Shown: piece after piece, positions 4,193 through 56,993 of the stretch | Position numbering within the stretch: position 1 is the first letter of the stretch | How the letters are laid out: each line of letters opens with the position of its first letter | NCBI GenBank assembly: GCA_905250025.1 | Contig: CAJNOJ010000386.1 | Span: 1 to 64,000 of the forward strand | From: Adineta ricciae | Lineage: Eukaryota > Rotifera > Eurotatoria > Adinetida > Adinetidae | Direction: 5' to 3' | Length of the DNA stretch: 64,000 nt | Program-made: the position numbers and the translations under genes | Notes under the pieces: model-generated | Told to the model about the DNA's origin: nothing | The model's input: the letters and a program-made list of their open reading frames with translations, nothing else | The model's database searches: none

Positions 4193-4365
4193 TATTATGC
4201 GATATCTGAAATAAGAAAAAAAAACATTGAAATGTAAAAGTTTCAGGATACTACATTCATTTCGAAAACAGTCTATGCACTCTTATTAGAGAAAATACAA
4301 TCAAGAATAAGCATGAAAATCACGAATTTGCAGTTGGATTTGTGTTGGCGATAATATTTGATTGT

Positions 4366-10165: not shown

Positions 10166-10496
10166 TCCTTGCTTTCGAAGGCAAAATAAAACGTGTATTA
10201 CATACCTATGTACAACAAATATCGTGCGTAACCATCAAGTGAACGAGAAAAGGTAGAAAGAATTGAAGAATAAATGCAACTACACTATTGCGGTGAGCAT
10301 AATGCTGCAAAACCGAACAAACCAATTATATACTTTCGTAAACGTTAAAAAAAAGGGATTGCTTGAAAACTTTAGTAATAAATGAAATCGTTGTTTTCAT
10401 TCTTATCAACAAATCTAACATTTTCTCTTATCTTTTCGTTCGTATTCTTCACGCACATGACAGAGTAAAACTTCATTTAGAAGAAAAACTGTCCCA
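10166..10496. promoter_or_regulatory. Divergent intergenic region, F-box relic and SMYD gene
   Basis: Separates the minus-strand F-box relic from the plus-strand SET/MYND gene. Similarity to the block B copy starts near 10425, so the left edge of block A lies inside this region. No core promoter element can be fixed. Confidence 0.35.
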
Positions 10497-11669
10497 ATGG
10501 ATTCTAACAAATTCGAAATTATATTCAAGGAAGGAAGAGGACGATACATGATTGCTAATGAAGAGCTATCACAAGGGGATATTGCATTCGTATGGAAACC
10601 GTACGTTCTTGTTCCATATGTAACCTACAAAGACCAAGTGTGTGCAAATTGTATTCTAATATCGATGAAAGCGAAACACGAGTGTCGAAACAATTGTCAT
10701 CGTGCGTATTACTGTTCAAGGTATTGCGAAGAACAACACTGGAATGAGTATCATCAATATGAATGCTCATTTCTGGAGAAAATCTTTCAGCTAGAAAGGC
10801 TTGGTTACAACGATGAGGTGGTGAATTATGCTCGATTAGTCATGCGAATTCTAACTCGACGATTCAAAGATCTTTCACAAAAGTCGAAATGTATGTCATT
10901 TGATGAAGTTTGGTTATCATCGTCACATGCCGATAAGTTTTCAAAGGAAAAGGCAAAGGAATTCGAATGCATCGCCAAACTGTTAACAGAATACGTTTTA
11001 ACGAAGCTTGTTTATGAAAAATCGAACGATTCCATTGAAGTATTTCTTCCTGATAGTGAAGACACGAAAAAGGTTCATATAGACGATTTCGATCAATGGT
11101 TTGATGACAGAATTCAATCAAATGAACGAAACGCAACGAAAGTGTTATTAGAAAAAGTATTTATTCTTGTTTGCATCGAAGAGGTCAACGCTTTATTTCA
11201 CATCACATTTAAATTGGATGGATACTCTGCACCGCCACAAACTTACGCCATGGGAATCTATCCATCAGCTGCATTTGTCAATCATTCGTGTTCACCGAAT
11301 TTAGCACGTTTTCCTGTTCAAGATGATCGAAATGATTTTCATGTCGGCGATGTCGTGTATTTCGCAACTCGTTCAATAAAGCCAGGCGACGAAGTTTGTT
11401 ACAGTTATTTAGAAAGAGACGCGACACTTCCTGGCAATCGACAAGAAATGATTCAATGTCAACTGAAAAGAAAGGAAAAACTAAAGGAAGAGTTTTTCTT
11501 CGACTGCGATTGTGTGCGATGTCAAAATGAATCTAATGAAAATAGTGATTCATCCTATGAAACCTTAATTGAGCAACTAAAATGTAAAAGATCAGAGTGC
11601 AAAGGTTGGTTCATTCCAGCTTTGAATGGAAAACAAATGATGTGCGAAGCATGTCAAATGTTACGATAG
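10497..11669 (+). CDS. SET/MYND (SMYD-type) protein methyltransferase, copy A
   Basis: 390 residues from ATG 10497, no intron. The split SET domain starts with KEGRGRYMIA. It is interrupted by a MYND zinc finger (CANC..CRNNC..YYCSRYCEEQHW..HQYEC), continues with the SAM/Lys-site signature FVNHSCSPN and GDEVCYSYL, and ends with a post-SET CxCxxC (CDCVRC). An extra C-terminal CxxxxC..CEAC pair may bind another zinc. SMYD enzymes methylate Lys on histones or cytosolic proteins using SAM; all signature residues are present, so activity is likely, substrate unknown. AATAAA lies at 11694-11699. The paralogous copy is at 47901-49073. Confidence 0.88.
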   Translation: MDSNKFEIIFKEGRGRYMIANEELSQGDIAFVWKPYVLVPYVTYKDQVCANCILISMKAKHECRNNCHRAYYCSRYCEEQHWNEYHQYECSFLEKIFQLERLGYNDEVVNYARLVMRILTRRFKDLSQKSKCMSFDEVWLSSSHADKFSKEKAKEFECIAKLLTEYVLTKLVYEKSNDSIEVFLPDSEDTKKVHIDDFDQWFDDRIQSNERNATKVLLEKVFILVCIEEVNALFHITFKLDGYSAPPQTYAMGIYPSAAFVNHSCSPNLARFPVQDDRNDFHVGDVVYFATRSIKPGDEVCYSYLERDATLPGNRQEMIQCQLKRKEKLKEEFFFDCDCVRCQNESNENSDSSYETLIEQLKCKRSECKGWFIPALNGKQMMCEACQMLR

Positions 11670-12006
11670 AATTTGATTTTGACACTGTCAGAAAATAAAT
11701 CGCTTTAGTCGTAAAGCTACGATTGGCTCTAATATTACTTGATATTATTCATTTTGTTACCTTAAATCAATAATTTATCCTCTCATGGATTCAAGTAAAT
11801 ATCGTAATTGTGTAATAGTCAATGGCAAAAACATAGAAACCTTATGAATGAAGTTGGAAAAAAAACTCAAGTTTTGCATTTCTCCAACTTTTCTGTTTTT
11901 CCTTTTTCTAATAGACGTATAAACATCATCTTGAATACGAGTGTTACATATTTTCCCTTCTCTCTATATCGTGTGGTACTCATCACTGTAGGTAAGTTTA
12001 GAAAGT
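11670..12006. promoter_or_regulatory. Intergenic region before ART-TPR gene, copy A
   Basis: Conserved with 49074-49401 apart from small indels. A T-rich tract and GTAGGTAAGTTTAG lie just before the ATG, which could be remains of a 5' UTR splice site. Confidence 0.35.
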
Positions 12007-14595
12007 ATGTCTCTCCAAGACAAACCAATTGATGATAAACCATCGGACGAGAGACGAGAACCGCCAAGAATAAGAATCAACCGTGAACAAATCGTTCTAA
12101 TTCTACTTCATCGTCAAATTAATCCGTCGCAATCTATTGCCGATGGTAGTAATATTTGTCCAGTCGAGAAAATTTTACGTCAATTAACTGATAATTTACA
12201 TTTATTTTCCAACAACAATGACTGCCTTTCCTACGCTGAAAAGGCCAAAGATCAAACAATATTTATGATCATCGATAGTTCGTATGCATCAGCGGATCTC
12301 TTGGGAAAACTTCACACCATGCAGCAAATAAATTCAATTTTTATTTTCCGTCAAGCCAAGGATATGCCCGTTCCGGTCTTGTCTGCCACAGACTATTGTA
12401 AAATAGTAAATGTGTCCGATGAACAAGATAATTTAACCTCGAGTATTGAACACATCACTGATTATATTGATAATCAATCAACCATATTCACTGTTTGCGA
12501 CCAAGATAAGCAGATGTCGACTCGTGATGTCGACCAAGAATCGGGAATGTTTATTTTCTTTCAACTAGTGAAAAAGGTTATTAAAAAAATGCTACCAAAT
12601 GAAGATGCCGTATGCAAGAGTAAGGAAGAAATGATTAACAAATGTCGTCTTGATTGCAAAGATAGCACAAAAGATCTTGAGAATATCATCAGATTTGAAA
12701 ATGAATATACTGCCGATCAAGCGATTCAATGGTATACGAAAGATTGCTTTATTTACAAGCTTATCAACAAAGCTTTACGAACCGAAGACATTGAACCCTT
12801 GTATACGTACCGTTTTTATATCAATGATCTTAGTGCATGCTTGGCCGAGCGTTGTAAACTTCTGCGAGAAAAGACGTCAAAAATTACGGTTTTTCGCGGT
12901 GCAAAGATATCCAAAGCTGAAATCGATCGACTCGCGCAGAATAAAGGACATTTAATTTCGACGAACGGATATTTTTCAACGACCTGGAAAAGAGCAGTAG
13001 CCAATATTTTTGCAGGCATCGAAGGAAATAATCGATCCCATTCCGATCTATATCAGTCCATTCTGTTTGAAATCACCGTGGATTTAGAGAAATATCCTGA
13101 AATCATCCTTGCAGATATCCAGGATATTAGTTTACATAAAGATGAAGAAGAATTACTCTTTGATCTGGATACGGTATTCAAGCTTGAATCCATTACGTAT
13201 AACGACACTTTATCGTATTGGACATGTATGATGTCGGCAAGTAACGAAGGTCGTATTATTGTCAGACAATATCTTGATTTTAAAGAAAAAGAACTAGACA
13301 ATTCGGATGACAATGAAGTTGCATTCGGCAATCTTTTGTTTGACATGGGTCAGTGGTCTAAATCTCGGATATATTTCGAGAATCTTGCACTACGTCGTAC
13401 GAATGATCCTCACATTCAATTTGGTATTGCGTCATGCTGCCGTGCTCTTGGTGACATTAATCAAGCTCTTTTTCATTTACAACAGGCTTACGATCTCAGT
13501 ATGCACATTGAACATGAATGTCTTAGATTAAAGGGTCAAATTTGCTGCAATCTATTGCGAACCTACCAAGAATATGGAGATTTTTCGAAAGCTGCTGCTT
13601 TTGGCGACGAAGCACTAGACTTCTACCGACAAGCAGGAGAACACAGCAATGAAGTCGGAATTGCAAAAGTATGGATTAATTTTGGCCTGCTTAACTACTA
13701 CAAAGGTCATGACGATATCTGCTTAGAACAATTAGAGCGCGCTCATACACTCTTGAAGCGTACTTCTCAGTTTGATGGTCCAGAAATCAGCGAATGCTAC
13801 AAATTTTTGTCGTTCGCTCACTACCACAACGGAGACTACGACAAAGCACTAGATTCTTTAATGAAAGAATCACAAATAACAGCACGACTCTTTCCTACTA
13901 ATCATCCACAAACTGCTGCAACCGAAAACAATATCGGAAAGCAATATTACAAACAAGGCAAGTATGAAGAAGCACTAAAACAGTTTCGTCGTGCAGCTGA
14001 AATCAGCGAGCGAGTATCGACGACTAACAGTGCAAACCAAATTGTTTTTCTCAATAATATCGGCAAGGCGCTCTATCGACTGAAGCAAATTGACGAAGCC
14101 GAAAAGTATTTTGAAGAAGCTCTTCAATTAACCAAAAAGATTTTCTCATCATCAACCGACCACATTTACCTAGCGTATACTTATAAAAATCAAGGCGAGA
14201 TTTTTTTGGCGAAGAACGATTTTGTCGGTGCACTTGCACTTTTCCAACAGGCTCATGACATGTACAAACGTATTTTTGTGCAAAATAGTAATCAGCGAGA
14301 CGTCGCCAAATGTCAATATCTCATCGGATTGAGCCATCTGGCACTTAATGATATCGAACAGGCAACCACTGCATTGGAACAAGCACTGCATATGCGAACA
14401 AACGCTTTGCATCCTGATCATCCTGATTTAGCTTTCAGTCATCGATCCATGGGCGATTTATACATGTGTAAGAAGAATGAAGTCAAAGCTATCGAACACT
14501 ATAAGTTAGCGCTAGCAATTTGGGAGAAACGCCTGCCTTCTGATCACGATCAGTTAGTAGATCTGAAAGAGATATTGGCACATTTTAAACCATAA
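12007..14595 (+). CDS. ADP-ribosyltransferase with N-terminal alpha/beta domain and C-terminal TPRs, copy A
   Basis: 862 residues from ATG 12007, no intron. Residues about 25-165 form an alpha/beta region (IFMIIDSSYASADLL, then SIFIFRQAKD) that I have seen in rotifer ART-TPR proteins but cannot assign to a named family. The ART domain (about 170-400) has TVFRGAK with Arg297, YFSTTW at 322-327 and DEEELLF with the Glu pair 380-382: a complete R-S-E triad of the Arg-specific kind. From about 435 to the end there are several TPR motifs resembling kinesin light chain repeats (for example GDYDKALDSL, GKYEEALKQF). TPRs bind partner peptides, so the ART is probably brought to a chosen target. No signal peptide, so cytosolic. 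Confidence 0.88.
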   Translation: MSLQDKPIDDKPSDERREPPRIRINREQIVLILLHRQINPSQSIADGSNICPVEKILRQLTDNLHLFSNNNDCLSYAEKAKDQTIFMIIDSSYASADLLGKLHTMQQINSIFIFRQAKDMPVPVLSATDYCKIVNVSDEQDNLTSSIEHITDYIDNQSTIFTVCDQDKQMSTRDVDQESGMFIFFQLVKKVIKKMLPNEDAVCKSKEEMINKCRLDCKDSTKDLENIIRFENEYTADQAIQWYTKDCFIYKLINKALRTEDIEPLYTYRFYINDLSACLAERCKLLREKTSKITVFRGAKISKAEIDRLAQNKGHLISTNGYFSTTWKRAVANIFAGIEGNNRSHSDLYQSILFEITVDLEKYPEIILADIQDISLHKDEEELLFDLDTVFKLESITYNDTLSYWTCMMSASNEGRIIVRQYLDFKEKELDNSDDNEVAFGNLLFDMGQWSKSRIYFENLALRRTNDPHIQFGIASCCRALGDINQALFHLQQAYDLSMHIEHECLRLKGQICCNLLRTYQEYGDFSKAAAFGDEALDFYRQAGEHSNEVGIAKVWINFGLLNYYKGHDDICLEQLERAHTLLKRTSQFDGPEISECYKFLSFAHYHNGDYDKALDSLMKESQITARLFPTNHPQTAATENNIGKQYYKQGKYEEALKQFRRAAEISERVSTTNSANQIVFLNNIGKALYRLKQIDEAEKYFEEALQLTKKIFSSSTDHIYLAYTYKNQGEIFLAKNDFVGALALFQQAHDMYKRIFVQNSNQRDVAKCQYLIGLSHLALNDIEQATTALEQALHMRTNALHPDHPDLAFSHRSMGDLYMCKKNEVKAIEHYKLALAIWEKRLPSDHDQLVDLKEILAHFKP

Positions 14596-14996
14596 TCACG
14601 CGAACACTTCGTCAAAAACAAAGAGGAGTCACAGTCATATTACTATTTATCTAATATATTGTAATCTCGAATTCTGCTACGTTGTATAAAATCACGAAAT
14701 ATATTCGTATATCATTAAGTACACAGTCGATACCTAGATGTCGCTCTATAGCAATCAACTTTTCCTTTCAATAGCACATATTCTACACATTGTCAAGAAA
14801 GAAAAAAACGTTTTGGCTGATGAAAGTAGGCAATCAACGTCCTCGTATTTTTCTCGTACTCAAATCGTCTTTTACCGAGGAAGAAACAGAACAGTACATT
14901 ATGTTTTTTGTTACAACATCGCCCAATGATTTTTATGAATATTCTCTGTATGAATCTATATTTTAGATTAAACAATACAGCTTTTAGCTAGACTCT
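14596..14996. other. Intergenic region, ART-TPR to deformylase, copy A
   Basis: AT-rich 3' flank of the ART-TPR gene and 5' flank of the deformylase gene. Conserved in B (51112-51488) but with deletions, for example near 14905-14930. No gene seen. Confidence 0.4.
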
Positions 14997-16241
14997 ATGC
15001 ATGCCGTAATAAAGCGAAACATTCCTCTTGGTTGGTATCATGTTGATCAGATTGTGATTTATTTCATGAATCGATGTAGTTCAATGACCACACAACGACT
15101 CATACATTCAGCTAGTTTCAACTGTCGCCATATGTCGCGGAAGATTGCCGCATATGACCGGCGCCTGCTTTCACCGAAAGCGCAAGGTAAGAAGTAGACT
15201 TCAGTAGAAACAGTATACTGTTGGTTTTAGTGTATAAAAAGTAACTCGTATTGCACGGTATGCGGTATGCTATCATATATTTCTTTTCTTTCTACAAACC
15301 AACAATAAATGGTCAAGAAATGAAGAGTATTATTTTTGTTACATACGATTAGTATATACGCTGTTATTTTTCTTTTCGTCTTGCTTCTCGCGATGAGATT
15401 TCACAGACCAAAGTGGCAAGAAGAACACGGGTGAAACAGGTTTACTCAGTGTACTAAGATTTAATGTAAATGTAAAATAATCCAACACTTATGTTCTCAC
15501 CGTTCGAAACTATTCTTGGGTCAATATCATTGTAATTGTTAATCTTTAGAAAAAATACGCTCGATGTCGTCGCAGTGCGATTCAAAAGACAAAAAAGACA
15601 ATGAAAATCGATGTGAACAACAAAGCCTGCAATTACTTAAATTAACTGTTGAAACAGATCCCATTCTTCATAACCCAATAGAAGAGATGCGTCTAGAGGA
15701 TATCTGTAGTCCTGAGACAAAGCAAATTGTGGCAAATATGATCTATTCTATTCGAGCAAAACAGCTGGAACGTGCGAACGCTCCATTTACTAAGGCGGCT
15801 GGCATGGCCGTGAATCAATGGGGCATAAACAAGCGAATATTTTTATTTTGCCCCGAAGGAAATGATGGAGAGGTAAAAGTTATATTTAATCCAACATACA
15901 AGCCAATTTCGTCGAACCAAGTATCAACAGATCCAACGAAAACAAAATCAGAAGATCAGTTTACAAACTTATATCGAGAAGCTTGCTTCAGTGTTCCACA
16001 AGCATATGGAATCGTCGAACGCTACACAAATATTGCAATTAGTTATGTTGATATCGATGGTGTGCAGCATACGGATGAGCAATTATCCGGTTGGAAAGCT
16101 AGAGTGTGGCAGCATGAAACAGATCATTTAAATGGAATGTTGTACTCAAACAGACAATCGGGACTTAAATATGGTCCGAACTGTACAGAATTTCATAGAT
16201 TTCAAACGAAATCGGAATTCGATGAAAGTTACCCGAAATAA
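14997..16241 (+). CDS. Peptide deformylase, probably mitochondrial, copy A
   Basis: Two exons, 14997-15186 and 15550-16241, with a 363-base intron (CAAG/GTAAGA, ATCTTTAG), in frame, 293 residues. Exon 1 supplies a basic, Ser/Arg-rich leader from Met1 or Met24 (MNRCSSMTTQRLIHSAS), typical of a mitochondrial presequence. The enzyme part has motif 1 AAGMAVNQWG (Gln153), motif 2 EACFSVP (Cys209) and motif 3 QHETDHLNG (His252, Glu253, His256), so the metal ligands and the catalytic Glu are all kept. The enzyme removes formyl groups from new mitochondrial proteins. Motif 1 differs from the usual GxGLAAPQ. If only the ATG at 15564 were used there would be no leader; splice sites and frame are conserved in copy B, which favours the two-exon model. 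AATAAA at 16264. Confidence 0.82.
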
Positions 16242-16859
16242 AGAAATACAATCTGCGTAAGAAAATAAAAATATAAAGTTAGCCGATAGATTTCTTCTAC
16301 TTGTATTGTTATGTATGAATGAGATACAACATGTCGAAATGCCTAATGAACAGTTTTAATTGCTCAATTACAATCACAATTTAACGAGAAAAACAGTCAA
16401 AGGGTAGTAACTATAAACACTATTTTCGTTCTTATCTCGAGATTGTCGATTGTGGTCGGAAAAGTACACGTAAGTATATTCATTCTCGTACTAGTTTTGA
16501 AAATGGAACAAAATGTACATCGCACCGTCTAAAAGCAATCCTATTGACAATTGAATAAAGTAGATCATGAAGCAATTTGATCAGTCATAAAGTGTAGCTA
16601 TATTTAGACGGTAAATCAATACTTTGGACAGTACTTTTTCTTTTTAATGATACGCGTTATCATCGCACGATAAATGACAACAATAAAACAGAAAAGCACT
16701 CGGTTCAAGGACAGTTTTATGATGATTATACGATCTCCGTCTCGTATGAATGCATACTATCGCTTACTAAACAAAATATTTATTGTCTTCACTGAGATAT
16801 AAAACCATTGCGCATTTGGATTAAATACTAGACACACTTCTTCACGTCTACCATCGACC
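16242..16859. promoter_or_regulatory. 5' flank of P450-lipoxygenase gene, copy A
   Basis: AT-rich, conserved with 52727-53381, which has an extra insert of about 40 bases near 53065-53105. The strongly conserved last 150 bases before the ATG are the likely promoter and 5' UTR. Confidence 0.4.
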
Positions 16860-19800
16860 ATGGTGTTGAACACTTGGTTTTTAGATCATTTTTACAATTT
16901 GGATACTATAATCAGAATTGGATGGTTGGCATTAATATTTGCACCGTTCAACAAGATTTCGAAGTATTGCATTATTTTACCGACTTTACTGTTCTCCATT
17001 GAATGCATCCTGATGCTACTCTTTCGAGACTTACCAGTGCTCAATTGGATTTCACTCAAAGATCTACTCATGACTATCATCGTTCAACGAAAGCAATTTT
17101 ATCTGATGGATTTATGGATTGCTCAATGGATGGTTTATAATTTCTATGCAGGATGCGGCAAAACGGCATCATGTGGCTCATATCATATCAACAAAACATG
17201 GACGTCGGAAAGATATGTGTTTACTATCCTCCTTTTCCTGACTTATCTTGCTGCGCCGCTTGGCCTCGTACTTTACATCGTAGGAAAACACTCTTTTTTG
17301 AAAGAGTATCAAAAGAATGTACAAAATGTTATTAAAAACGACCATTTTCATATTGATCAACTGAAACATCCATTCTCAATTCCTCATACCGTTCGATTTG
17401 CTGATCGATTACCTGAATCGTTGTCGTCAATCTACTATTTCTTACTTGGCATTATTGGGTTAACAATTTTATTTACTATCGTTCTTCCAAGTTACATCGG
17501 TTTGATAATCTATTGTCGAATCGTGTACAAGTATTCATCATCATCATTATCCGACTTAAAAACCATCCCCGAATCTGTTCGCAATGTAACAGCAGAGATG
17601 AGATTAACATTGATCAAAACCGATCGCAATCAACGACGTTTGATCTGGCATCTCAAATATCTTCTTTTGCAATTCGCTACTATATTCGAATATGCATCCA
17701 ACTATTCTGAACCTTTTCGTTTATTTCAATCCTTAGAAGAATACTTTCGTAAAATCTATCATACTCCATACTTCGTTTTGGGTAATGGTATCGCAGTGAA
17801 TTCGTATGACATAGTCAAACGGTATATTCAAGATCTTCCACCACGAAAAGATGCGGAGCTACTGGCTTGGGAAATTTCACCATCATTGGAAACATTTTGT
17901 GATTTTACAACAGTTTTTCTTTCCACTGACCATCCGGATACGCAGTTAGGTCGTAAGATCATATTTCAATGGTTACATTCCTTTCCTCATAATCTGAAAC
18001 ATCGAAATTTCGAAATGGAACTTCAACTTTCACGAATAGTTCCACGTCACATGGATAAAAAGCCAACGAAAGATCTAGTCTACCAAGCTATCGGAGAAGT
18101 TATGTTTGTCTTGGCAACCAATGGAGAACTAACAAAAAGTGAACGATTAGCTTATATCAGTTGCGTGCAAAGCCCATTCATATTCTTCCCTAATTGGTTC
18201 AATTTCTTATTGAATGGTCATCATTTCGAACGGAAAAATCTACGCAATTATTACACACTGCTTCGTGCATTTTTGCGCTATGAAAATGGATTGGCTTTAC
18301 AAGCAGCTTTTATGGCAGCTGAAAAGAAGAAGTCGCGCGAAGAAGTCTTGAAATTTATCACCGTTGTTTTTTGTGTGGCTGGAAGTCCGGCACCAGCGAA
18401 ACTAGCAGTGACTGTCATCGATCGATTGTGGGCAGACAAGGAAAAAAATGTTCCGTTATTCAAGAAAAACCCTCACAATGTTATAAAAGAATGCGCTCGA
18501 CTGGATAAAGCTGTTCCGACAGTGAATATCCTGGCAACAGATGAAATCGTTAGTGAAGTTGAAAAATCTTTTGAAAGTAAGATCCAAATTCCTGAGAATA
18601 CGCCAATTCATTGTTCAATTGTCAATGCCAATCGTGACAAAACGGTTTTTGAAAATCCTGATGAGTTTCTACCAGATCGTTTGGATTTGAACAAAATCCT
18701 TGTTTGGAACGGTGTTGAAGAGGATATCATCAATCCGGATCAGAGCAAACGACCCATTCGATACTGTCCCGGACATGATTTATCTCTCGATATTGTCCAA
18801 TATGTCGCCGAGCGATTTTCACCAGTTACTGACGACATCGACGAAGATAATACCAACAACAAAAACGAACAAGATTTGATCGTCTTCGAACAAAAGATCC
18901 GAAAATTGACTCCAATCGAAGAAAGTCATTGCTGGAATGTGTTAGACACATACACAAAAGTTGTTCGACTATTAATGACAATCGTTATTAACGAATCCAA
19001 TTTATTTCCATCACGTGCTATTGATATAGCGCCACCCATGCATTTACCCATAAAGAATTTCAGTATCTTTCGTATCGACATGGCAAAATTCATCCCGTCC
19101 TGGGACGAAGATAAACCGAATGGTTCACGACCGTTGAGAAGGTTCGCTCGTTGGTTAGTTAACAGTAACATTTGGGATTTTTATGATTGTCTAGCGGGAT
19201 TCGATACATTAGCGCAAGGACTGGCATGGCGCTCACAAATTTTCCCTTCATTACCTTTGCCAAATATTGTCTACACCGACATGTTTTCAGATGAAGCGAT
19301 GGGTCGCTTGGCATTCTTCGGTTGTGCATGTCATTATACTCAACGGATTGACAAATCTGAGCATCCATCTTTACAAAACGCTGTCTATGTTAATGACATG
19401 ACTGTGTTATCGATCTTCCGTGTTCGAAAACCATTCGAACGATACGGTGCAGCAGCATATTTCGATGGCGATTTTCAATTGATTGCCATCTACTGGTGTC
19501 ATGCCAATCGATTAGTTAGAAAAGATGATCAATTCTGGGAGCATGCTAAATATGTTTGGCGTTCATCATTCTTCGCTTACGTAACGATACACGATCATTT
19601 AATTGTTACACATATGATCGAATGCAATGCATTGGTCACTGCCACACGAAAATATTTGACCAATGGTCATCCACTACGATTATTTCTCCAACCATTTACA
19701 TATCACACGGTTTCAGTTAATTACCAAGCTGCTATTTCATTAGTCAATCGGCGCGGTCTCGTTCATCGCGTATGGGCATTTGATTACGATGAATTTTTGA

Positions 19801-20474
19801 AAGTATGTGACTATATCTCTATGACTTACAAATTTCGTTTACTACCTGAATATATTCCTTCGTCCATGTCTCCAGAAAACAACTCGAAAACCAAAGAACA
19901 ATGGGACAAAGTTTATCCAATCTATTCCGATTTGAATCATTTTTGGAAGGGCATTCATAAATATGTTGAAAACTTCTTTCATATAACTTTTAACGTGCAA
20001 GACGATGACAAATTACCGGTGGATGCGCGTATGACGGAGTTTATTAATGAATTATGCAAACAACTAGGCATACCTGGCATTGTCTCATTAAAACGATTTA
20101 TTGATGTTTTAGCACATCTCATCGTCAGTGGTACGGGTATGCACGAACATGTCGGACAAATTAGTGATTACGTCATTGATCCAAGATTTATCGGAGCAAA
20201 ATTAGAAGAAGGAAAGGAAATTCAAAATATCCAGACATACACTCAAATACTGATTTTAACAGTTGTTACCGGTGTGCGTATGCCTGGCTTGTTAGAAGAC
20301 TGGAGTCATTTGATTGAACGTAATCAGTACTATGAGAAGAATTTAGTGAATTATGAAAATTTCAAAAATGAATTGAAAAACTTATCTCAAGATATCGATC
20401 ATCGGAATAAAACAAGAAAATATCCGTTTGAATCATTTAATCCAAAATTTATCGAGTGTTCAGCGTCTGTTTGA
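16860..20474 (+). CDS. Membrane-anchored P450-like / lipoxygenase-like fusion, copy A
   Basis: 1204 residues in one exon, ATG in CGACCATGG. Hydrophobic segments at about 18-34, 37-56, 118-142 and 190-222 make a multipass anchor. Residues about 245-655 look like a cytochrome P450: K-helix ECAR (Glu544, Arg547), NRDKTVFENPDEFLPDRL, and the haem loop RYCPGHD with Cys636; the loop resembles the CYP74 clan (allene oxide synthase, hydroperoxide lyase). Residues about 690-1204 look like a lipoxygenase: WEHAK, THMIECNALVTATRKYL, HPLRLFLQPF, VNYQAA, a late His cluster MHEHVGQ (1094-1100) and the end RNKTRKYPFESFNPKFI..SASV. LOX makes fatty acid hydroperoxides and CYP74 enzymes convert them, so a one-chain oxylipin synthase is the natural reading. 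The iron ligands are not fully canonical. AATAAA at 20489. Confidence 0.78.
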   Translation: MVLNTWFLDHFYNLDTIIRIGWLALIFAPFNKISKYCIILPTLLFSIECILMLLFRDLPVLNWISLKDLLMTIIVQRKQFYLMDLWIAQWMVYNFYAGCGKTASCGSYHINKTWTSERYVFTILLFLTYLAAPLGLVLYIVGKHSFLKEYQKNVQNVIKNDHFHIDQLKHPFSIPHTVRFADRLPESLSSIYYFLLGIIGLTILFTIVLPSYIGLIIYCRIVYKYSSSSLSDLKTIPESVRNVTAEMRLTLIKTDRNQRRLIWHLKYLLLQFATIFEYASNYSEPFRLFQSLEEYFRKIYHTPYFVLGNGIAVNSYDIVKRYIQDLPPRKDAELLAWEISPSLETFCDFTTVFLSTDHPDTQLGRKIIFQWLHSFPHNLKHRNFEMELQLSRIVPRHMDKKPTKDLVYQAIGEVMFVLATNGELTKSERLAYISCVQSPFIFFPNWFNFLLNGHHFERKNLRNYYTLLRAFLRYENGLALQAAFMAAEKKKSREEVLKFITVVFCVAGSPAPAKLAVTVIDRLWADKEKNVPLFKKNPHNVIKECARLDKAVPTVNILATDEIVSEVEKSFESKIQIPENTPIHCSIVNANRDKTVFENPDEFLPDRLDLNKILVWNGVEEDIINPDQSKRPIRYCPGHDLSLDIVQYVAERFSPVTDDIDEDNTNNKNEQDLIVFEQKIRKLTPIEESHCWNVLDTYTKVVRLLMTIVINESNLFPSRAIDIAPPMHLPIKNFSIFRIDMAKFIPSWDEDKPNGSRPLRRFARWLVNSNIWDFYDCLAGFDTLAQGLAWRSQIFPSLPLPNIVYTDMFSDEAMGRLAFFGCACHYTQRIDKSEHPSLQNAVYVNDMTVLSIFRVRKPFERYGAAAYFDGDFQLIAIYWCHANRLVRKDDQFWEHAKYVWRSSFFAYVTIHDHLIVTHMIECNALVTATRKYLTNGHPLRLFLQPFTYHTVSVNYQAAISLVNRRGLVHRVWAFDYDEFLKVCDYISMTYKFRLLPEYIPSSMSPENNSKTKEQWDKVYPIYSDLNHFWKGIHKYVENFFHITFNVQDDDKLPVDARMTEFINELCKQLGIPGIVSLKRFIDVLAHLIVSGTGMHEHVGQISDYVIDPRFIGAKLEEGKEIQNIQTYTQILILTVVTGVRMPGLLEDWSHLIERNQYYEKNLVNYENFKNELKNLSQDIDHRNKTRKYPFESFNPKFIECSASV

Positions 20475-20949
20475 ATCTTTTTTTTCTCAATAAATATTCA
20501 TCGACGACATCTATGAACAACAATCTTTTTATTAAAAAAAAAGAGAACGTGTAGCTGAAACTCTTTGAGAAAATTTCACGGTACGGCCAATAGAAAATTG
20601 CGTCGTTCTGCAAACGAGAATACATTCGTCACAATAACAAATACTGAATAACATTTTGAGAAGAATCGCATCGAATCCGTTCAAAACAACTATTTTCTAC
20701 TTAGCAACGTTGAAATAAAACTGAATGATCAATGAAATGAAATGAAATGCATGAGTAATAACTCGTTCTCTTTCTTATATGGTAACCATGATGTCGCATT
20801 TTATCGATCTACCTGTATATACTATTTACATTACTGTTTTCACTTGCATTTAATCTAATCGTTTAAAATAAATTACAGCGTTTGTCCTTATCTGTGAAGG
20901 TAAAGACCATATTCTTAGTTAAATAATTCACTCTATTTCACGTTTTACG
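20475..20949. promoter_or_regulatory. Intergenic region before Dispatched gene, copy A
   Basis: 3' end of the fusion gene and promoter of the next gene. Contains a short GAAAT repeat near 20732-20750 (one unit more than in copy B). No gene seen. Confidence 0.4.
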
Positions 20950-23900
20950 ATGTCCCTGTCATTCAATATTCTGTAAGTAATAAAATTTCTTCTCTACTTA
21001 GAAAATCTTTTATTTATTTTTCAGTTATTCACGTCTACTTGTTCGTCATCATTGGCTTGTCCTTAGTTTCGTAGTATTCAGTTGTATAACATTAACAGTC
21101 ATTGCGTTTGTGTTTACAAAGTTACCTGACTTATCTGATCCACGAATAGGATGGGGAGCACGTGGAAAAGGAACGATATTCTCTCAATTGATGGTGTTAC
21201 GTCATGCAGCGGAAAGGTTTCGCCAGGCTTACGAAATACCATCAGAAGAAAGTACGTTATTTGGTGCATTCGAACAATATCTAAATGTATCTGTTGATGA
21301 TCTGGATGAGAATACATATCGTTATGATGTTCTTGAAAAAAGTGATCTATGGAAGAAGAAAAATTCCGATTACGAAATTATTGATTATCATAATTTAAAC
21401 GATTCTTTCTACGATCTTGCAACGTATGATGACGACGAGGACTATATTGATGAGGTCGATAAACCAGAATCAACATTACTCTATCAATACCATCGCGATC
21501 GACATTTCGATACGGAAACTTTGATAACAAAATTTGTTGATAACAAACTGTAACGTGTTAACAAACTTTTCAGATACATTCATATCTTTTTCTGTTATTT
21601 AGGATCAATATAACTGTATTAGATTTTGTTCGAAATCTTCCACAATTCAATAGAACGAATTATAAATCAGCACGACTATCATTTGATCTTTTTCGACCGT
21701 ACGCATTTCTCCTCGAGCATAAATACCGTGGTCCGTCAGGTAAACAAAACGATTTATTAGATACTTCATCTTCCCATGAGAAATACACAAGCATGACCTT
21801 TTTCGACTAAAAGGACGAATACGAGTAACTTAAGTGTGTAACCTACTCCTAGTTGTTTATTATACGAAGAGTATGTTAACTGTCGTACGAAACGAACGTC
21901 GTAAAATGTAACGATCGAAATGAGATTATAAACTTGTTTACACAGTTTTCGAGAGAAAAGTACGAGTACGAATGCTTCGAGTATCTTTTTCCTCATAGAG
22001 AATCTATCACTATTATAGAAAATAACTCAGTCAGACTTTTTTTTTTCTTTCTCGTCTTACTGACGTTGTGTATTTGTTATGACAACAACAACACGACCGA
22101 GAGAAGTCGAGTCGCACGCGTTTCAAGGAGAAAGAAAAAAAAAGAGTTGAATATTTTAGGTCGCGATGGCATGATCGAGTTTTATATCGAACGTTTGAGT
22201 TCTACCGATGACTTACTCTCACTCAATCATCTACTTTCTATATGTAAATGGGAAAAAGAATTCAAAAATATTCTTGCATTAAGTCACGTACCGAGTCTAT
22301 CGTTAGCGACATTTGTTGCATTATACTCATCAAAAACTAATTGCGAATCGATCACATCCGATGATGTGGATCGTTTCCGTTCGATACTTCATACATGTTT
22401 ACCATACTATCTCGATGGTTACATGGACATTCCCTTGAGTGATCAATTCTTCAATCGAGTTCAAATTAAGCACGAATCTGCTGATTGGACATATCAAGAG
22501 CAATTGAAAGCGATTTATGCCGCTTTGCGTCATACGTGTTTCTATAAGAACATCACACGTTTTGTTTTTGATCATTTTCTCGATAAGAATTTCATCAACG
22601 ATTTTCAACAATCCAAAACAAATGCGAAAGTCTCGCTCTCAATGATATTCGTATCGAATTATAAAACTATGAAATACAATCGAACGCGTGATCAAACCAT
22701 GTGTCGAAAACGACAACCATACGCTACAAAATACTGTCTACAACGTGGCTGTATGGATGATTTAAATGATAAAACGATTGCAAAATCATGTGCTAACCAA
22801 GCGCCCCCATCAGGAAATTGTGACAAATATTGTATATGCAAAAATCAATGTATAAATCAAACTGAACAAATGATTCTGATGACGCCGATTTTGAAAGGAG
22901 AAGATTTAATTGAAATCTATCAGAAATATTTCGATGGTAAACGACAATTTTCCACATATGAAAATCAGTACCTCAAACTGATCGCAGTGAATTTCGCTTA
23001 TGTGAGAGAAAAGGCAGCGATGGCGCAAGTATACAAAGGTAACGTGAAAATTGTTTCGGTAATCGATTGATTTATCTTTTTCAGACACACTTCTTGCTAT
23101 GATTGCTGCCGGATTAATTATTATGATAACAGTTCTCTATCTACGTAGTATAACCATAGCTTTTATGATCATTCTTGGCACGACATTAGCATTGGGTGTA
23201 AGTTATTTTGTCTATCGCGTGATATATGGCATTCCAATATTTCCGACGATGAGTTTCATGTCGGTGTTTATCTTAATTGGAATTGGTTGTGATGATATTT
23301 TTGTATTTTTTGACACGTGGCATCATGAAAAAGCGGAATTGTTGAGAAAGCGTCATGAGAAGCTACAAACTGATAGTAAAATCGGCCTTTTGATTTGAAC
23401 TTCAGTCGATCGTTTTGATTTATTTAGATACGAATGTTCCGTTGAATGATCTGAATACCAATGAAGAACTCAAGACGAATATTGTTGAATATTTTGATGA
23501 TTCTCTTGGCGAAGAAGCATTGATTGAAATCATGTCAAGGACACTGAAACATGCTGCTTCATCGATGTTTGTCACATCGTTCACAACGTCCGCTGCCTTC
23601 TTTACGAATATGTTAACAAATATTTCATTTATTCAAGTCTTCGGAGTGTTTACTGGAACATCAATCCTAGTTTATTTTCTGATAACAATCACTGGCATCG
23701 CTGCTTTCGCTGTTAGTTGAAATCTTTTCGAGAGAATGATGATTTTTGTTTTTCTTCAAGGTTATTTATGAAAAATACATACATAACATGGCGTGTTGTA
23801 CCAGTTGGATAAAGATTCCCATAGCAGATATATGTCAACGTTTTCGAATTTATATATTTAATAACATTCTCCCAATGATTATTATCAAATTACGTTATTT

Positions 23901-25878
23901 TCTCGTTTTATTCTTTCTATGTTTGGGAATCTTAGGTAATCGAAGACATCCACCTGTTTTCATTGAAATCATCGTATCTATCTCTAGGTTTGGTCGGTGT
24001 TTTTTATTATCCGAAATTGCATGTACCATCTACTCCGAAAGTGATGTTTTTCGGTAAAACTCATCCGATGGAGATCTATGAATTCCAAATGAAACGTCAA
24101 TTTCACGGTTATATCAAACAAGACAATCGTTTCTTTGCTTACCCACCGATTTCCTTCGTTTTCGGAATTCGAGATATTGATGATGGATATATATTCGATA
24201 TGAATGATCGGGGTCGACTTCATCTAATGCCAATCGATTTGCATCGACAAGTCACATTGGACTTTTTTAAGCAGTTTATCAGAGATCTGGGAACGCGAAA
24301 AGATTTGTTTATTTCGAATTACAACTTAGAGAAAGATTTCGATGGATTTTATAAGGTAGGTTTCGACTTATTGTTTAATTTTGTCTACATCGATTGTCGT
24401 TTAGCTGAGTACGGAAAACATTTTTAAAGGAAAACTCGTTCAAGACCGAGTGAAAGCTAATTTCTCGAAAACGAATCACTTCGAGATGATTAGATATTTA
24501 CGAACAACAAACAAAAGTTTGATCGAAGAACTTCTTTCGAAAAGTATGCAGTCAAACTCGACGTTGCACCAAATCAGCATGACACAATTAACTCAGTCGC
24601 CAAATCCAATCATTGTCTATGCAAACTACCGGAAAACTTTCAATAAAACATTGGAGAAAATTTATAAACAACAAGTATGTTGACGAAAACCCGGTTCGAT
24701 CTTACGAGAAATGTGTCATTTCAGGTTGAACACAATGCAATTTTGAGTACTTTCAACGAAACCATACGTGACGCAATGATAGAAGTGCATCAACTTTCAG
24801 CATTGAAGACCGGAATGCAGTGCATAACAGGAACAGCTGGAGAGAACAATCTTCCAATGGAATTTTGCGAAAAACAATTGAAAAAACAACGGTCACGGAA
24901 TTGGGTGGTTTTACTTCACAAACCATCGCCTATCGATGGTAGTGTTCGACCATTTGCTGTTTTAATTACTATTCAAGGTACTCTCAACCGCACGAATTAC
25001 AATTCGTACGATGTCTATTATCGCAAGGTCAAAGACTTTTTTGATTCATATATGAAGCAGCATGCACCGGAACATCTCAAACACGGCTGGTTTTCTTCGG
25101 CATCGTTTGCGTTCTACGGTATTCAACGCGAAACTGTCGTTGGATCATTTTCTTCCCTCATTGCATCACTGGGCATCGCTTTACTGATTCTGTTTCTAAC
25201 ATCAGGAAATCTGTTTATTGCAATCTACGCGCTGCTTACAATGACTTTTTCTATAAGTAAATCTACCTGTCTTCCTTTTCGTCTCGAAGAAAATTTCATT
25301 GATTCTTTTTAGCTGCGACAATTACTATCTTTGCTTTCTTGAAATGGGAATTGGGCATTGTCGAAGCAATTGTGATAATCATGTCCGTTGGTTTATCCGT
25401 TGATTTCGTTGTTCATTTTGGCGTTGGTTATATTCACGCTGATCCGAGTACAATTGAACGTGAAAGGAAAAAAGCGAGGAATCGATATTCATCAACAACG
25501 TCAGAATCACACGGTTTCGGTTCGATATGGAAAGAGCATCACGCTGAACGGGAGGTACGTGTTAGAGAATCAGTCTCTCGCGTCGGTTCAGCGGTGTTTA
25601 TGGCAGCTTTTACAACGTTTGCCGCTGGATTTTCGATGGTACACGCGTCACTGACTGCATACGGACAAATGGGACAATTTTTGATGACGATAAGTATGTG
25701 AATGAAATCTGAGGTAACTATTTATTTGATTTAATTGTTTCTAGTGTTGTCATCATGGATTTTTGCCATGTTTTTCTTCTTACCATTGTGTGCGATCCTT
25801 GGTCCTGTTGGCGGATGCGGTTCAATTCCATTTTCGCGAATTGCTTTGTGTTTTAAGCAGCTTATACATCGAAATTGA
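20950..25878 (+). CDS. disp: Dispatched homologue (RND-type sterol-sensing permease), copy A
   Basis: Twelve exons: 20950-20972, 21025-21549, 21603-21739, 22160-23038, 23085-23375, 23428-23711, 23761-23935, 23988-24355, 24405-24674, 24725-25256, 25313-25693, 25745-25878. All introns have GT..AG ends and all phases agree, giving 1332 residues. A first membrane segment (RHHWLVLSFVVF) precedes a long extracellular loop with Cys-rich parts. The first sterol-sensing half has GIGCDDIFVFFDTW (Asp591-592) and the Dispatched-like block KHAASSMFVTSFTTSAAFF. The second half has SVGLSVDFVVHFGVGY (Asp1192) and the matching AVFMAAFTTFAAGF. These Asp residues form the proton or cation relay of RND pumps; Dispatched releases lipid-modified Hedgehog. 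Which cargo exists here is unknown. Intron 3 is about 420 bases, the others 44-56. Confidence 0.9.
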
Positions 25879-26626
25879 ATCTACTGAGTGCTCAAGTCAT
25901 TTATTTATTACTTGTTTTTTTTAGACGAATTTCTTTGTTAATTTAAAAAATTTGTATTTAAAGAAGTATTCAAGCGCAGTCTGTGATCATAGGAATCGGT
26001 TTGAACGTATCAGCAAAATATTTTTGTGATGCATTGAATTGGTTTGCGTTTTATAAATTATTTGACTGGAATGGAAGAAAAAGTAAAGAACACTTTCGCG
26101 AGGATTTCTGAAATATATTCTATTCGTATCATTCGTTTTGTATCAACTCTTAAATAATAAAAATTTGTACATGAGCAAATAATTGAAATACAATCAATGA
26201 GAAACACAGTTGTGAATGTCAATCCCACATAAGGTAGAACCAAACATTATATCATCTACTTGTGTCCTTCATTTTGACGTGTCTCACTTTAGCATCAGGT
26301 ACTCGCACTATCTTTCTCGTATGTTTGGCAAATGATCATGAAAAGTACCACGAAACGAAGATAAATAAAGGTATTAAACTAAATCTCTCTCATAACATAT
26401 TTCAGGATTAAGCAACATCAAGTTGCATTCATTATCAATCAAATAAACGAATATTTCTATACCGCCAATAAAAAGAACAGATAATCACACACAAAAACAT
26501 TCCGAGTTCGATCGCTCACCAAACTTATGTCAAAAAAAACTGTCCACTAAGCTGGTATCGGCACAATCGATAAAAGAAAAGTTGTAACCAGTGGCATAAG
26601 CGAATCTCAATTAGTTTCAGTTCTAT
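25879..26626. other. Convergent 3' region, Dispatched and receptor genes, copy A
   Basis: Lies between the stop of the plus-strand Dispatched gene and the stop of the minus-strand receptor gene. Well conserved with 62391-63130. It contains no frame of interest and probably holds both 3' UTRs. Confidence 0.45.
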
Positions 26627-49073: not shown

Positions 49074-49401
49074 GAGTTTGTTTTGATATCGTCAGAAAAG
49101 AAACGTTCTAGTTGTAAAGCTTCATAATGGTACCTGATATTATTCATTTTGTTACCTTAAATCAATAATTTATCCTCTCCTAGATTCAAATAAATATCGT
49201 AACTGTGTAATAGTCAATGGCAAAAATATAGAAACCTTATGAATGAAGTTGGAAAAAAAACTCAAGTTTTGCATTTCTTCAACTTTCCTGTTTTTCCTTT
49301 TTCTCATAGACATCTAAACATCATCTTAAATACGAGTGTTACATATTTTCCCTTCTCTTTATGTCGTGTGTTACTCATCGCTGTAGGTAAGTTTAGAAAA
49401 C
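49074..49401. promoter_or_regulatory. Intergenic region before ART-TPR gene, copy B
   Basis: Counterpart of 11670-12006 with small deletions. The GTAGGTAAGTTTAG sequence just before the ATG is kept. Confidence 0.35.
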
Positions 49402-53381: not shown

Positions 53382-56300
53382 ATGGTGTTGAACACTTGGT
53401 TTCTGGATCATTTATACAATTTGGATACTATAATCAGAATTGGATGGTTGGCATTAATATTTGCACCGTTCAACAAGATTTCGAAGTATTGCATTATTTT
53501 ACCGACTTTACTGTTCTCTGTTGAATGCATCCTGGTGCTACTCTTTGGAGACTCACCAATGCTCAATTGGATTTCGCTCAAAGATCTACTCATGGCTATC
53601 ATCGTTCAACGAAAGCAGTTTTATCTGATGGATTTATGGATTGCTCAATGGATGGTTTATAATTTCTATGCAGGATGCGGCAAAACAGCATCATGTGGCT
53701 CATTCCATATCAACAAAACATGGACGTCGGAAAGATATGTGTTTACTATCCTGCTTTTCCTGACTTATCTTGCTGCACCGCTTGGCCTCGTATTTTACAT
53801 CGTAGGAAAACACTCCTTTTTGAAAGAGTATCAAAAAAATGTACAAAATGCTATAAAAAACGACTATTTTCATATTGATCAACTGAAACATCCATTCTCA
53901 ACTCCTCATACCGTTCGATTTGCTGATAAACTACCTGAATCGTTGTCTTCAATCTACTATTTCTTACTTGGCATCATTGGGTTAACAACTTTATTTACTA
54001 TCGTTCTTCCAAGTTACATCGGTTTGATAATCTATTGCCGAATCGTGTACAAGTATTCATCATCATCATTATCCGATTTAAAAACCATCCCCGAAGCTCT
54101 TCGCAATGTAACAGCAGAGATGAGATTAACATTGATCAAAACCGATCGTAATCAACGGCGTTTGATCTGGCATCTCAAATATCTTCTTTTGCAATTCGCC
54201 ACTATTTTCGAATATGCTTCCAACTACTCCGAACCTTTTCGTTTATTTCGATCCTTAGAAGAATACTTTCGTAAAATCTATCATACTCCGTACTTCGTTC
54301 TGGGTAATGGCATCGCTGTGAATTCGTATGACATAGTCAAACGGTATATTCAAGATCTTCCACCACGAAAAGATGCGGAACTACTGGCTTGGGAAATTTC
54401 ACCATCATTGGAGACATTTTGTGATTTTACAACAGTTTTTCTTTCCACTAACCATCCGGATACGCAGTTAGGTCGTAAGATCATATTTCAATGGTTACAT
54501 TCCTTTCCTCATAATCTGAAACATCGAAATTTCGAAATGGAACTTCAACTCTCACGAATAGTTCCACGTCACATGGATAAGAAGCCAACGAAAGATTTAG
54601 TCTATCAAGCCGTCGGAGAAGTTATGTTTTTCTTGGCAACTAATGGAGAACTAACAAAAAGTGAACGATTAGCTTATATCAGTTGCGTCCAAAGCCCATT
54701 CATATTCTTCCCTAATTGGTTCAATTTCTTATTTAATGGTCACTATTTCGAACGGAAAAATCTAAGCAATTATTACACACTGCTTCGTGCATTTTTGCGC
54801 TATGAAAACGGATCGGCTTTGCAAGCAGCTTTTATGGCAGCTGAGAAGAAGAAGTCGCACGAAGAAGTTTTGAAATTTATCACCGTTGTCTTCTGTGTGG
54901 CTGGAAGTCCGGCACCAGCGAAACTAGCAGTGACTGTCATCGATCGATTGTGGGCAGACAAGGAAAAAAACGTTCCGCTATTCAAGAAGAACCCTCACAA
55001 TTTTATAAAAGAATGTGCTCGACTGGACAAAGCTGTCCCGACAGTGAATGTCTTGGCAACAGATGAAATCGTTAGTGAAGTTGAAAAATCTTTCGAAGGT
55101 AAGATTAAAATTTCCGAAAACACGCCAGTTCATTGTTCAATTGTCAATGCCAATCGTGACAAAGCAGTTTTTGAAAATCCTGATGAGTTTATACCAGATC
55201 GTTTGGATTTGAACAAAATCCTTGTTTGGAACGGTGTTGAAGAGGATATCATCAATCCAGATCAGAGCAAACGACCCATTCGATACTGTCCCGGACATGA
55301 TTTATCTCTCGATATTGTCCAATATGTCGCCGAGCGATTTTTACCAGTTACTGACGATATCGACGAAGATAATAACAACAAAAACGAACAAGATTTGATC
55401 GTCTTCGAACAAAAGATCCGAAAATTGACCCCAAACGAAGAAAGTCATTGCTGGAATGTGTTAGACACATACACAAAAGTTGTTCGACTATTAATGACAA
55501 TCGTTATTAACGAATCCAATTTATTTCCATCACGTGCTATTGATATAGCGCCACCAATGCATTTACCCGTAAAGAATTTCAGTATCTTTCGTATCGACAT
55601 GGCGAAATTCATCCCGTCGTGGGACGAAGATAAACCGAATGGCTCACGACCGTTGAGAAAGTTCGCTCGATGGTTAGTTAACAGTAACATTTGGGATTTT
55701 TATGATTGTCTAGCGGGATTCGATACATTAGAGCAAGCACTGGCATGGCGCTCACAAATTTTCCCTTCATTACCTTTACCAAATATCGTCTATACCGACA
55801 TGTTTTCAGATGAAGCGATGAGTCGTTTGGCATTCTTCGGTTGTGCATGTCATTATACTCAACGGATTGACAAATCTGAGCAGCCAGCTTTACAGAACGC
55901 TGTCTATGTCAATGACATGACGGTGTTATCGATCTTTCGTGTTCGAAGACCATTCGAACGGTACGGTGCAGCAGCATATTTCGATGGCGATTTTCAATTG
56001 ATTGCCATCTACTGGTGTCATGCCAATCGAGTAGTCAGAAAAGATGATCAATTCTGGGAGCATGCCAAATATGTCTGGCGTTCATCATTCTTCGCTTACG
56101 TAACGATACACGATCATTTAATTGTTACACATATGATTGAATGCAATGCATTGGTCACTGCCACACGAAAATATTTGACCAATGATCATCCACTACGATT
56201 ATTTCTCCAACCATTTACTTATCACACGGTTTCAGTTAACTACCAAGCTGCTATTTCATTAGTCAATCGACGTGGTCTCGTTCATCGCGTATGGGCATTC

Positions 56301-56993
56301 GATTACGATGAATTTTTGAAAGTATGTGACTATATTTCCATGACTTACAAATTTCGTTTACTACCTGAATATATTCCGTCATCCATGTCTCCAGAAAACA
56401 ACTCGAAAAGCAAAGAACAATGGGACAAAGTTTATCCAATTTATTCCGACATGAATCATTTTTGGAAGATCATTCATAAATATGTTGAAAACTTCTTTCA
56501 TATCACTTTTAACGTGCAAGACGATGACAAATTACCGATGGATACGCACATGACGGAGTTTATTAATGAATTATGCAAACAACTAGGCATACCTGGCATT
56601 GTCTCATTAAAACGATTTATTGATGTTTTAGCACATCTCATCGCCAGTAGTACGGGTATGCACGAACATGTTGGACAAATTAGTGATTACGTCATTGATC
56701 CGAGATTTATCGGAGCAAAACTACAAGAAGGAAAGGAAATTCAAAACATCCAGACATACACCCAAATACTGATTTTAACAGTTGTTACCGGTGTGCGTAT
56801 GCCTGGCTTGTTAGAAGATTGGAGTCATCTGATTGAACGTAATCAGTACTATGAGAAGAACTTGGCGAATTATGAAAATTTCAAAAATGAATTGAAAAAC
56901 TTATCTCAAGATATCGATCATCGGAATAAAACAAGAAAATATCCATTTGAATCATTTAATCCAAAGTTTATCGAGTGTTCAGCGTCTGTTTGA
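53382..56993 (+). CDS. Membrane-anchored P450-like / lipoxygenase-like fusion, copy B
   Basis: 1203 residues, one fewer than copy A (one residue lost in an Asp/Asn-rich linker). The hydrophobic N-terminal segments, ECAR, the haem loop RYCPGHD, the lipoxygenase blocks (HDHLIVTHMIECNAL, TATRKYL, HPLRLFLQPF, VNYQAA), MHEHVGQ and the SASV end are all unchanged. The roughly 58 differences fall mainly in membrane helices, linkers and loops. Keeping every catalytic-looking block unchanged while the rest drifts suggests both copies work. AATAAA at 57007-57012. Confidence 0.78.
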   Translation: MVLNTWFLDHLYNLDTIIRIGWLALIFAPFNKISKYCIILPTLLFSVECILVLLFGDSPMLNWISLKDLLMAIIVQRKQFYLMDLWIAQWMVYNFYAGCGKTASCGSFHINKTWTSERYVFTILLFLTYLAAPLGLVFYIVGKHSFLKEYQKNVQNAIKNDYFHIDQLKHPFSTPHTVRFADKLPESLSSIYYFLLGIIGLTTLFTIVLPSYIGLIIYCRIVYKYSSSSLSDLKTIPEALRNVTAEMRLTLIKTDRNQRRLIWHLKYLLLQFATIFEYASNYSEPFRLFRSLEEYFRKIYHTPYFVLGNGIAVNSYDIVKRYIQDLPPRKDAELLAWEISPSLETFCDFTTVFLSTNHPDTQLGRKIIFQWLHSFPHNLKHRNFEMELQLSRIVPRHMDKKPTKDLVYQAVGEVMFFLATNGELTKSERLAYISCVQSPFIFFPNWFNFLFNGHYFERKNLSNYYTLLRAFLRYENGSALQAAFMAAEKKKSHEEVLKFITVVFCVAGSPAPAKLAVTVIDRLWADKEKNVPLFKKNPHNFIKECARLDKAVPTVNVLATDEIVSEVEKSFEGKIKISENTPVHCSIVNANRDKAVFENPDEFIPDRLDLNKILVWNGVEEDIINPDQSKRPIRYCPGHDLSLDIVQYVAERFLPVTDDIDEDNNNKNEQDLIVFEQKIRKLTPNEESHCWNVLDTYTKVVRLLMTIVINESNLFPSRAIDIAPPMHLPVKNFSIFRIDMAKFIPSWDEDKPNGSRPLRKFARWLVNSNIWDFYDCLAGFDTLEQALAWRSQIFPSLPLPNIVYTDMFSDEAMSRLAFFGCACHYTQRIDKSEQPALQNAVYVNDMTVLSIFRVRRPFERYGAAAYFDGDFQLIAIYWCHANRVVRKDDQFWEHAKYVWRSSFFAYVTIHDHLIVTHMIECNALVTATRKYLTNDHPLRLFLQPFTYHTVSVNYQAAISLVNRRGLVHRVWAFDYDEFLKVCDYISMTYKFRLLPEYIPSSMSPENNSKSKEQWDKVYPIYSDMNHFWKIIHKYVENFFHITFNVQDDDKLPMDTHMTEFINELCKQLGIPGIVSLKRFIDVLAHLIASSTGMHEHVGQISDYVIDPRFIGAKLQEGKEIQNIQTYTQILILTVVTGVRMPGLLEDWSHLIERNQYYEKNLANYENFKNELKNLSQDIDHRNKTRKYPFESFNPKFIECSASV

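Follow-up and report, generated by a model that had tools for sequence, protein, structure and literature searches.

The described fusions of a dioxygenase with a haem enzyme are of two kinds, a lipoxygenase (LOX) with a catalase-like enzyme and a haem dioxygenase with a cytochrome P450, and in the fungal dioxygenase-CYP fusions the dioxygenase stands before the P450. This study concerns a gene of the rotifer Adineta ricciae that encodes a P450-like half followed by a LOX-like half, behind a membrane part related to the ABA4-like family. The gene lies in a stretch of 64,000 nucleotides, referred to here as the window (GenBank assembly GCA_905250025.1, contig CAJNOJ010000386.1, positions 1 to 64,000 of the forward strand). 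A first-pass annotation of this DNA had noticed a P450, a LOX and a membrane part in one chain, and this observation was confirmed by an intact open reading frame (ORF). The gene combines known parts in a new way and belongs to a real, conserved family. With moderate confidence, the fusion is read as a membrane-bound, one-chain, two-step fatty-acid oxidising enzyme. Its features were as follows.

16860..20474, + strand: whole ORF, 1204 aa, single, intact and intronless (ABA4-like domain, fifth helix, P450-like domain, LOX-like domain)
16860..17300, + strand: ABA4-like membrane domain, residues 1-147 (PF14108 in relatives, profile search, predicted helices)
17415..17531, + strand: predicted fifth membrane-length helix, residues 186-224
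17652..18839, + strand: P450-like domain, residues 265-660 (Pfam, solved-structure sequence matches, fold match)
18489..18500, + strand: ExxR motif ECAR, residues 544-547 (E and R in 51/51 aligned sequences)
18705..18779, + strand: W616-N-G, insertion and haem-Cys loop RYCPGHD with Cys636 (compare WSNGPETETPTVGNKQCAGKDF of CYP74A, 2rch)
18840..18929, + strand: linker, residues 661-690, coding in both window copies
19062..20471, + strand: LOX-like catalytic domain, residues 735-1204 (Pfam, solved-structure sequence matches, fold match)
19596..19613, + strand: first ligand pair H913-x4-H918 (48/48 aligned sequences)
20142..20156, + strand: HEHVG block, with the third ligand H1095 (H in 47/48) and Gly1099 at the usual fourth-ligand position (G in 48/48)
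20469..20471, + strand: C-terminal Val1204, the expected carboxylate ligand (V or I in 40/48)
53382..56993, + strand: second intact copy, 1203 aa, 95.3% identical

Protein searches listed 34 and 61 matches, together 67 relatives including the window protein. Their hosts were Adineta vaga, A. ricciae, A. steineri, Rotaria, Didymodactylos and the heterolobosean Acrasis kona; one EukProt transcript and metagenome and other proteins were also found. The first-pass annotation had named no precedent for a P450-LOX fusion with a multipass anchor; the fusion proved to be neither unique nor restricted to rotifers. Other rotifers and some microbes have related fusions, and the A. kona protein (P0057) carried P450 and LOX. 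When parts were assigned with hidden Markov models (HMMs) built from the family itself, 22 of the 32 family members with 1000 aa or more had ABA4-like, P450 and LOX parts, and 10, among them P0057, had P450 and LOX. All named animal hosts were bdelloids, which hints at a gain of the fusion by transfer. No viral relative was found in two scans of viral_contigs.

A LOX tree was built with 43 of the 48 given rows, five of the seven ordinary bacterial LOX outgroup chains having been lost with no LOX HMM match. Nineteen of the 20 protein-search rows formed one clade (100/100), the exception being P0062; near this clade stood a second one (100/99), made up of 11 free LOXs from bacteria. P0062 and several bacterial rows were long branches of unsure placement. 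Inspection of P0062 by eye showed a long hydrophobic stretch between P450 and LOX, a different part order.

Some observations could be taken to mean that an error of assembly or reading had merged two genes. An apparent linker intron was present in some relatives (a 77-nt gap in one copy on contig C406), and metagenome gene calls broke at the linker (P0014, P0024-P0032, P0036-P0046). This explanation, to which we give almost no weight, was ruled out by the two intact copies of the window, the other loci of the genome (four more, one matched in part) and the transcript-derived relative P0020; full-length annotated proteins in A. vaga and others also speak against it. Matches of ~700 aa (ABA4-P450) and ~550 aa (LOX) were considered as a split form of the protein and, without proof, not accepted; they were mostly metagenome gene calls ending or starting near the linker, with apparent intron read-through.

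Both fusion copies of the window sit inside a segmental duplication (10423-27513 and 47827-63855) of ~16-17 kb, with blocks 93-96% identical and 36.5 kb apart, which is either a true tandem copy or the product of joined haplotypes. A Nei-Gojobori comparison of the two copies over 1203 codons gave a dS of 0.147 and a dN of 0.020, a ratio of 0.137 (bootstrap 0.096-0.19). By part, dN/dS was 0.27 for residues 1-144, 0.24 for residues 145-244, 0.107 for the P450, 0.12 for the LOX and 0.19 for the linker, this last value resting on very few changes. The low ratio indicates that both catalytic halves have been kept by selection. Contigs C406 and C350 of the same genome each carried two further fusion loci, one of those on C350 being matched in part only; these loci are likewise paired on one contig, ~22 kb and ~9 kb apart respectively.

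Both halves were found to have the predicted folds, P450 for the first and LOX for the second. When each half was searched by profile, the LOX half exceeded its Pfam cut-off (PF00305, 29.6 bits vs 23.6) and the P450 half did not (PF00067, 19.7 bits for the whole protein and 21.7 for the isolated piece, vs 22.8). The PF00067 cut-off was reached by the relatives P0018 and P0023 and equalled by P0004. In the P450-like half, E544, R547 and C636 were all present, and the haem Cys was found in 52 of 54 aligned rows; the two rows lacking it (P0038, P0039) were chains of LOX alone, whose residues at that position are stray. Ordinary P450s have an acid/alcohol pair for O2 activation, with Thr at the position matching 511. 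Here the I-helix sequence is AGSPAP; the residue at 511 was A, G, V or C in 50/50 aligned rows, and that at 510 was D or E in 0/49. For the insertion at the haem-binding region and the ERR triad of the CYP74 clan, a comparison with the CYP74A of 2rch suggested a resemblance in the stretch before the Cys loop (W in 48, N in 48 and G in 46 of 52 rows; R607 in 50/56). An uncontrolled profile-profile search matched a CYP74A fragment. As the haem Cys and ExxR are kept and the acid/alcohol pair is absent, the P450 half most likely takes the hydroperoxide directly, in the manner of CYP74.

Two relatives carried additional parts in or before this half. In P0056, a SAP domain (E 6.3e-10) interrupts the P450 loop that leads from W-N-G to the haem Cys. 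In P0055, the first ~84 residues of the P450-LOX chain matched the end of a fatty acyl-AMP ligase (FadD32, E 1.3e-11), so that this sequence might be a ligase-P450-LOX fusion.

The first-pass annotation had described most of the LOX blocks as present. This held for H913, H918, H1095 and the C-terminal Val, and failed at the fourth ligand position. The single row without H1095 was P0053, whose chain end is unaligned there, so that its Gly counts little. No PLAT domain was listed at E<=10 in a Pfam scan of the window protein. Residue Ala957 is, we assume, at the 'Coffa' position, where by the Coffa rule an Ala gives the S configuration; this suggests an S-configured LOX product.

Further evidence came from bacteria. 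The single locus returned by a scan of genome_contigs was L001, a free LOX from a Deltaproteobacteria metagenome-assembled genome; this LOX was matched in 23/377 genomes of the same phylum (E<=1e-10), the weaker matches probably being ordinary LOXs. Twenty bacterial regions were examined, all of which matched the family LOX HMM, L037 through a 161-aa piece only. P450 ORFs were detected by HMM (E<=1e-3) in 7/20 regions, and a CYP74-type profile added three more contigs (G190:C45; G291:C519, >1 kb from the LOX; G157:C586, 5.4 kb), giving 10/20 with a P450 on the same contig. The gap between the LOX and P450 open frames was <50 bp in 7/20 (L032, L034, L036, L040, L041, L044, L045). The best solved relative of the L041 P450 was CYP74A (E 8e-28, next family 5.8e-5). 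L045 (8215-12137) carried a LOX, a rotifer-type P450 (E 3.6e-12 against the rotifer-type profile; 18.1 bits in Pfam, under the cut-off) and a patatin gene consecutively. Searched over the 377 genomes, this P450 matched four, namely itself and three at ~1e-8. In L044, a rotifer-type P450 (E 1.3e-5, with no Pfam match) was flanked by LOX frames. A patatin-like gene also adjoins the L001 LOX (PF01734, 28.8 bits vs 27.7; L001:5893-9029), and the lipase neighbours in L045 and L001 are a possible fatty-acid source. No ABA4-like ORF was detected in the 20 regions, and no single match joined P450 and LOX among the bacterial genome search matches.

Seven of the eight strong CYP74-type places (E<=1e-100) had a LOX relative no more than 1.4 kb away; the profile itself had been built from five of the eight, and of the three independent ones two were near a LOX and one was at a contig end. 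All 8/8 genomes with a CYP74-type P450 (E<=1e-50) were among the 13/377 with a LOX relative (E<=1e-20; p 1.4e-13), and 4/4 when the four profile-source genomes were left out (p 1.6e-7), with thresholds picked after the lists were known. We infer that these adjacent free LOX and P450 genes are the unfused counterpart of the fusion, the gene order being observed and the function presumed. The first-pass proposal of an anchored oxylipin synthase was supported in part, and an oxylipin synthase is still the simplest reading that the sequences suggest. Free LOX relatives in bacteria have P450 genes in their neighbourhood, and one of these P450s is plainly of CYP74 type.

In such an enzyme, the ABA4-like domain and the fifth helix would anchor the chain in the membrane. 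The LOX-like domain, for which the fold and four of the five ligands were found, would form a hydroperoxide from a polyunsaturated fatty acid and O2. The P450 half, needing no reductase, would then rearrange this hydroperoxide into an oxylipin such as an epoxide, an allene oxide or an aldehyde, and the fusion would hold the reactive intermediate local.

A number of observations weigh against this two-step enzyme. For the P450 half, an Asn in the I-helix groove is given as a feature of the CYP74 clan in PMC8124189. The corresponding position is Cys505 in the window protein, and Asn was present solely in P0020 (1/51 aligned). The earlier label 'CYP74-like' fits the W-N-G stretch, the insertion and the missing acid/alcohol pair, but not this residue. 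In P0062, a Thr was present at 512, one past position 511. The closest solved P450 sequences were bacterial CypX (CYP134) and CYP107-type proteins, with weak matches (best E 0.0048), and no CYP74 was among the 27 solved-sequence matches listed at E<=1; the lack of CYP74 chains among the 50 fold matches listed counts neither way. The nearness of such bacterial P450s and the absent Asn would fit an ordinary monooxygenase served by an external reductase, or a peroxygenase, hydroxylating the LOX product or another lipid. We consider this unlikely, as the acid/alcohol pair is missing at 510/511, no reductase domain was found in the chain by the Pfam scan, and CYP74-type P450s adjoin the bacterial LOX relatives.

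The main ground for doubt is the LOX metal site, which is non-standard because the fourth ligand position is Gly. The usual second pair, His-x3-Asn/His/Ser, was not present, Gly1099 standing there in 48/48 rows. It aligned gap-free to the Asn of the Fusarium LOX 6ns2; in the ALOX12 alignment it adjoins a two-residue gap. Among 21 bacterial sequences from the wider clade, two had Ser there and the others G, A or Q, and none had N or H; Ser serves as a metal ligand in some LOXs. The predicted model was also poor near the metal site, with a pLDDT (model confidence score) <50 at model residues 1093-1096. The second His of HEHVG was considered as a substitute ligand and ruled out, as it was L or Q in 6/48 rows (one of them, P0053, unreliable). 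With Gly at the fourth position, the LOX half might be no working dioxygenase, being instead a domain with a weak or other metal, a hydroperoxide isomerase or a lipid-binding scaffold, with the P450 half using hydroperoxides made elsewhere. The invariant Gly and the lack of Asn or His in the wider clade favour this, and according to a Myxococcus LOX paper (PMC6612559) a true ALOX sequence must have both iron-ligand clusters, of which the second is His-Asn. Against it stand the conservation of H913, H918, H1095 and the C-terminal V/I, and the low dN/dS of this half between the window copies. The Asn694Gly mutant of soybean LOX-1 also reportedly still binds metal and is partly active, although no paper with N694G was found among the literature matches listed; PDB 1y4k is presumably this mutant. 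On balance this explanation seems improbable, if less so than a monooxygenase.

The bacterial picture also has exceptions. Ten of the 20 LOX regions were without a nearby P450, some of them stopping at contig ends. Weaker CYP74-type matches (E 1e-36 to 1e-13) were found without a close LOX relative in G093, G214, G250 and G321, although G321:C2 carries, besides its CYP74-type match (6825-7694), a match to a LOX that is more distant (4072-4533). Two CYP74-type genes beside a LOX were broken (L036 and L032: a TAG in G113 and a frame split in G001), either by decay or by sequencing error.

The multipass anchor of the first-pass annotation was retained, and its identity was revised: it is related to the ABA4-like family (PF14108), as judged from sequence profiles. 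The window protein itself was below threshold for PF14108 (8.7 bits vs 27), whereas relatives exceeded it (P0004 33.3, P0005 31.1, P0020 28.7 and P0023 31.1 bits), and 25/34 family rows gave a match at E<=1. The PF14108 matches in the rotifer's own genome were at four places, all within the other fusion loci on C406 and C350. A profile of six family N-termini (A10) retrieved seven PF14108 proteins. Six of these had 141-158 aa (E 1.3e-5 to 2.8e-4); the seventh, 279 aa long, was close to the family. The W, L-x4-W and P-x-G-x3-Y positions were common to the family N-termini and free ABA4-like proteins. The predicted model of residues 1-220 showed five long helices (mean pLDDT 79.0), and no match to the PDB was obtained at E<=0.001. 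Plant ABA4 is linked with the isomerisation of an epoxy-carotenoid to neoxanthin. A three-step relay is a doubtful extension of the two-step enzyme: the LOX hydroperoxide would be turned by the P450 into an epoxide or allene oxide, which the ABA4-like domain would open or isomerise. If true, the chain would make oxylipins at the membrane by itself from start to finish, and its LOX site would work with three His plus a carboxylate, lacking a fourth ligand from a side chain.

Other features lie around the fusion genes. The duplication also carries SET, ADP-ribosyltransferase-TPR and peptide deformylase genes beside them. The peptide deformylase (PF01327, E 5.8e-30; 15564-16241) is directly upstream of the fusion gene, and the second copy is likewise preceded by a similar 225-aa ORF. 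The ADP-ribosyltransferase-TPR protein is 862 aa long at 12007-14595 and 569 aa, with fewer TPR repeats, at 49402-51111; the self-match of the duplication skips ~880 bp (13389-14268) within this gene. Two sites flanking the fusion ORF were motif matches only.

16798..16803, + strand: TATAAA, ~60 bp upstream of the ATG
20489..20494, + strand: AATAAA, 15 bp past the stop

The fusion is present in animals (bdelloids), together with an ABA4-like membrane domain. As bacterial two-gene counterparts exist, the chemistry can be tested as one protein and as separate genes, and the Gly-for-Asn metal site is a natural test of the ligand number that a lipoxygenase needs. No report of a P450-LOX fusion was among the literature matches listed, a scope that covers papers outside subscription.

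Each part was compared with its known counterparts. The membrane part shares with the ABA4-like/neoxanthin-synthase family (PF14108) a helical domain and the W, L-x4-W and P-x-G-x3-Y positions, but here it is fused to P450-LOX in an animal and the window copy is under the Pfam cut-off. The P450 half has in common with the CYP74 clan (plant AOS/HPL/DES, animal EAS) the ExxR, the haem Cys, the absence of the O2-activating pair and, tentatively, W-(S)-N-G with an insertion before the Cys loop; it differs in the unconserved I-helix Asn, in a nearest sequence that is apparently not CYP74 and in being fused. The LOX half is like the lipoxygenases (PF00305) in its fold, H-x4-H, third His and C-terminal Val/Ile, and unlike them in having Gly at the fourth ligand position and in forming a distant branch of the LOX tree.

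In the coral and cyanobacterial allene oxide synthase-lipoxygenase fusions (PDB 3dy5), the haem half is catalase-related, according to PMC8124189, whereas here it is a P450; no catalase family was listed at E<=10 in the window protein, an ABA4-like membrane domain stands in front and no PLAT domain was listed. The fungal DOX-LDS, DOX-AOS and DOX-EAS likewise carry a fatty-acid dioxygenase and a hydroperoxide-metabolising P450 in one chain, as described in PMC13049297. Their dioxygenase is a haem enzyme, whereas here it is a LOX placed after the P450, and no haem peroxidase (COX-like) dioxygenase domain was listed at E<=10 in the window protein. In the LOX-P450 fusion, these two steps have apparently been joined once more and separately.

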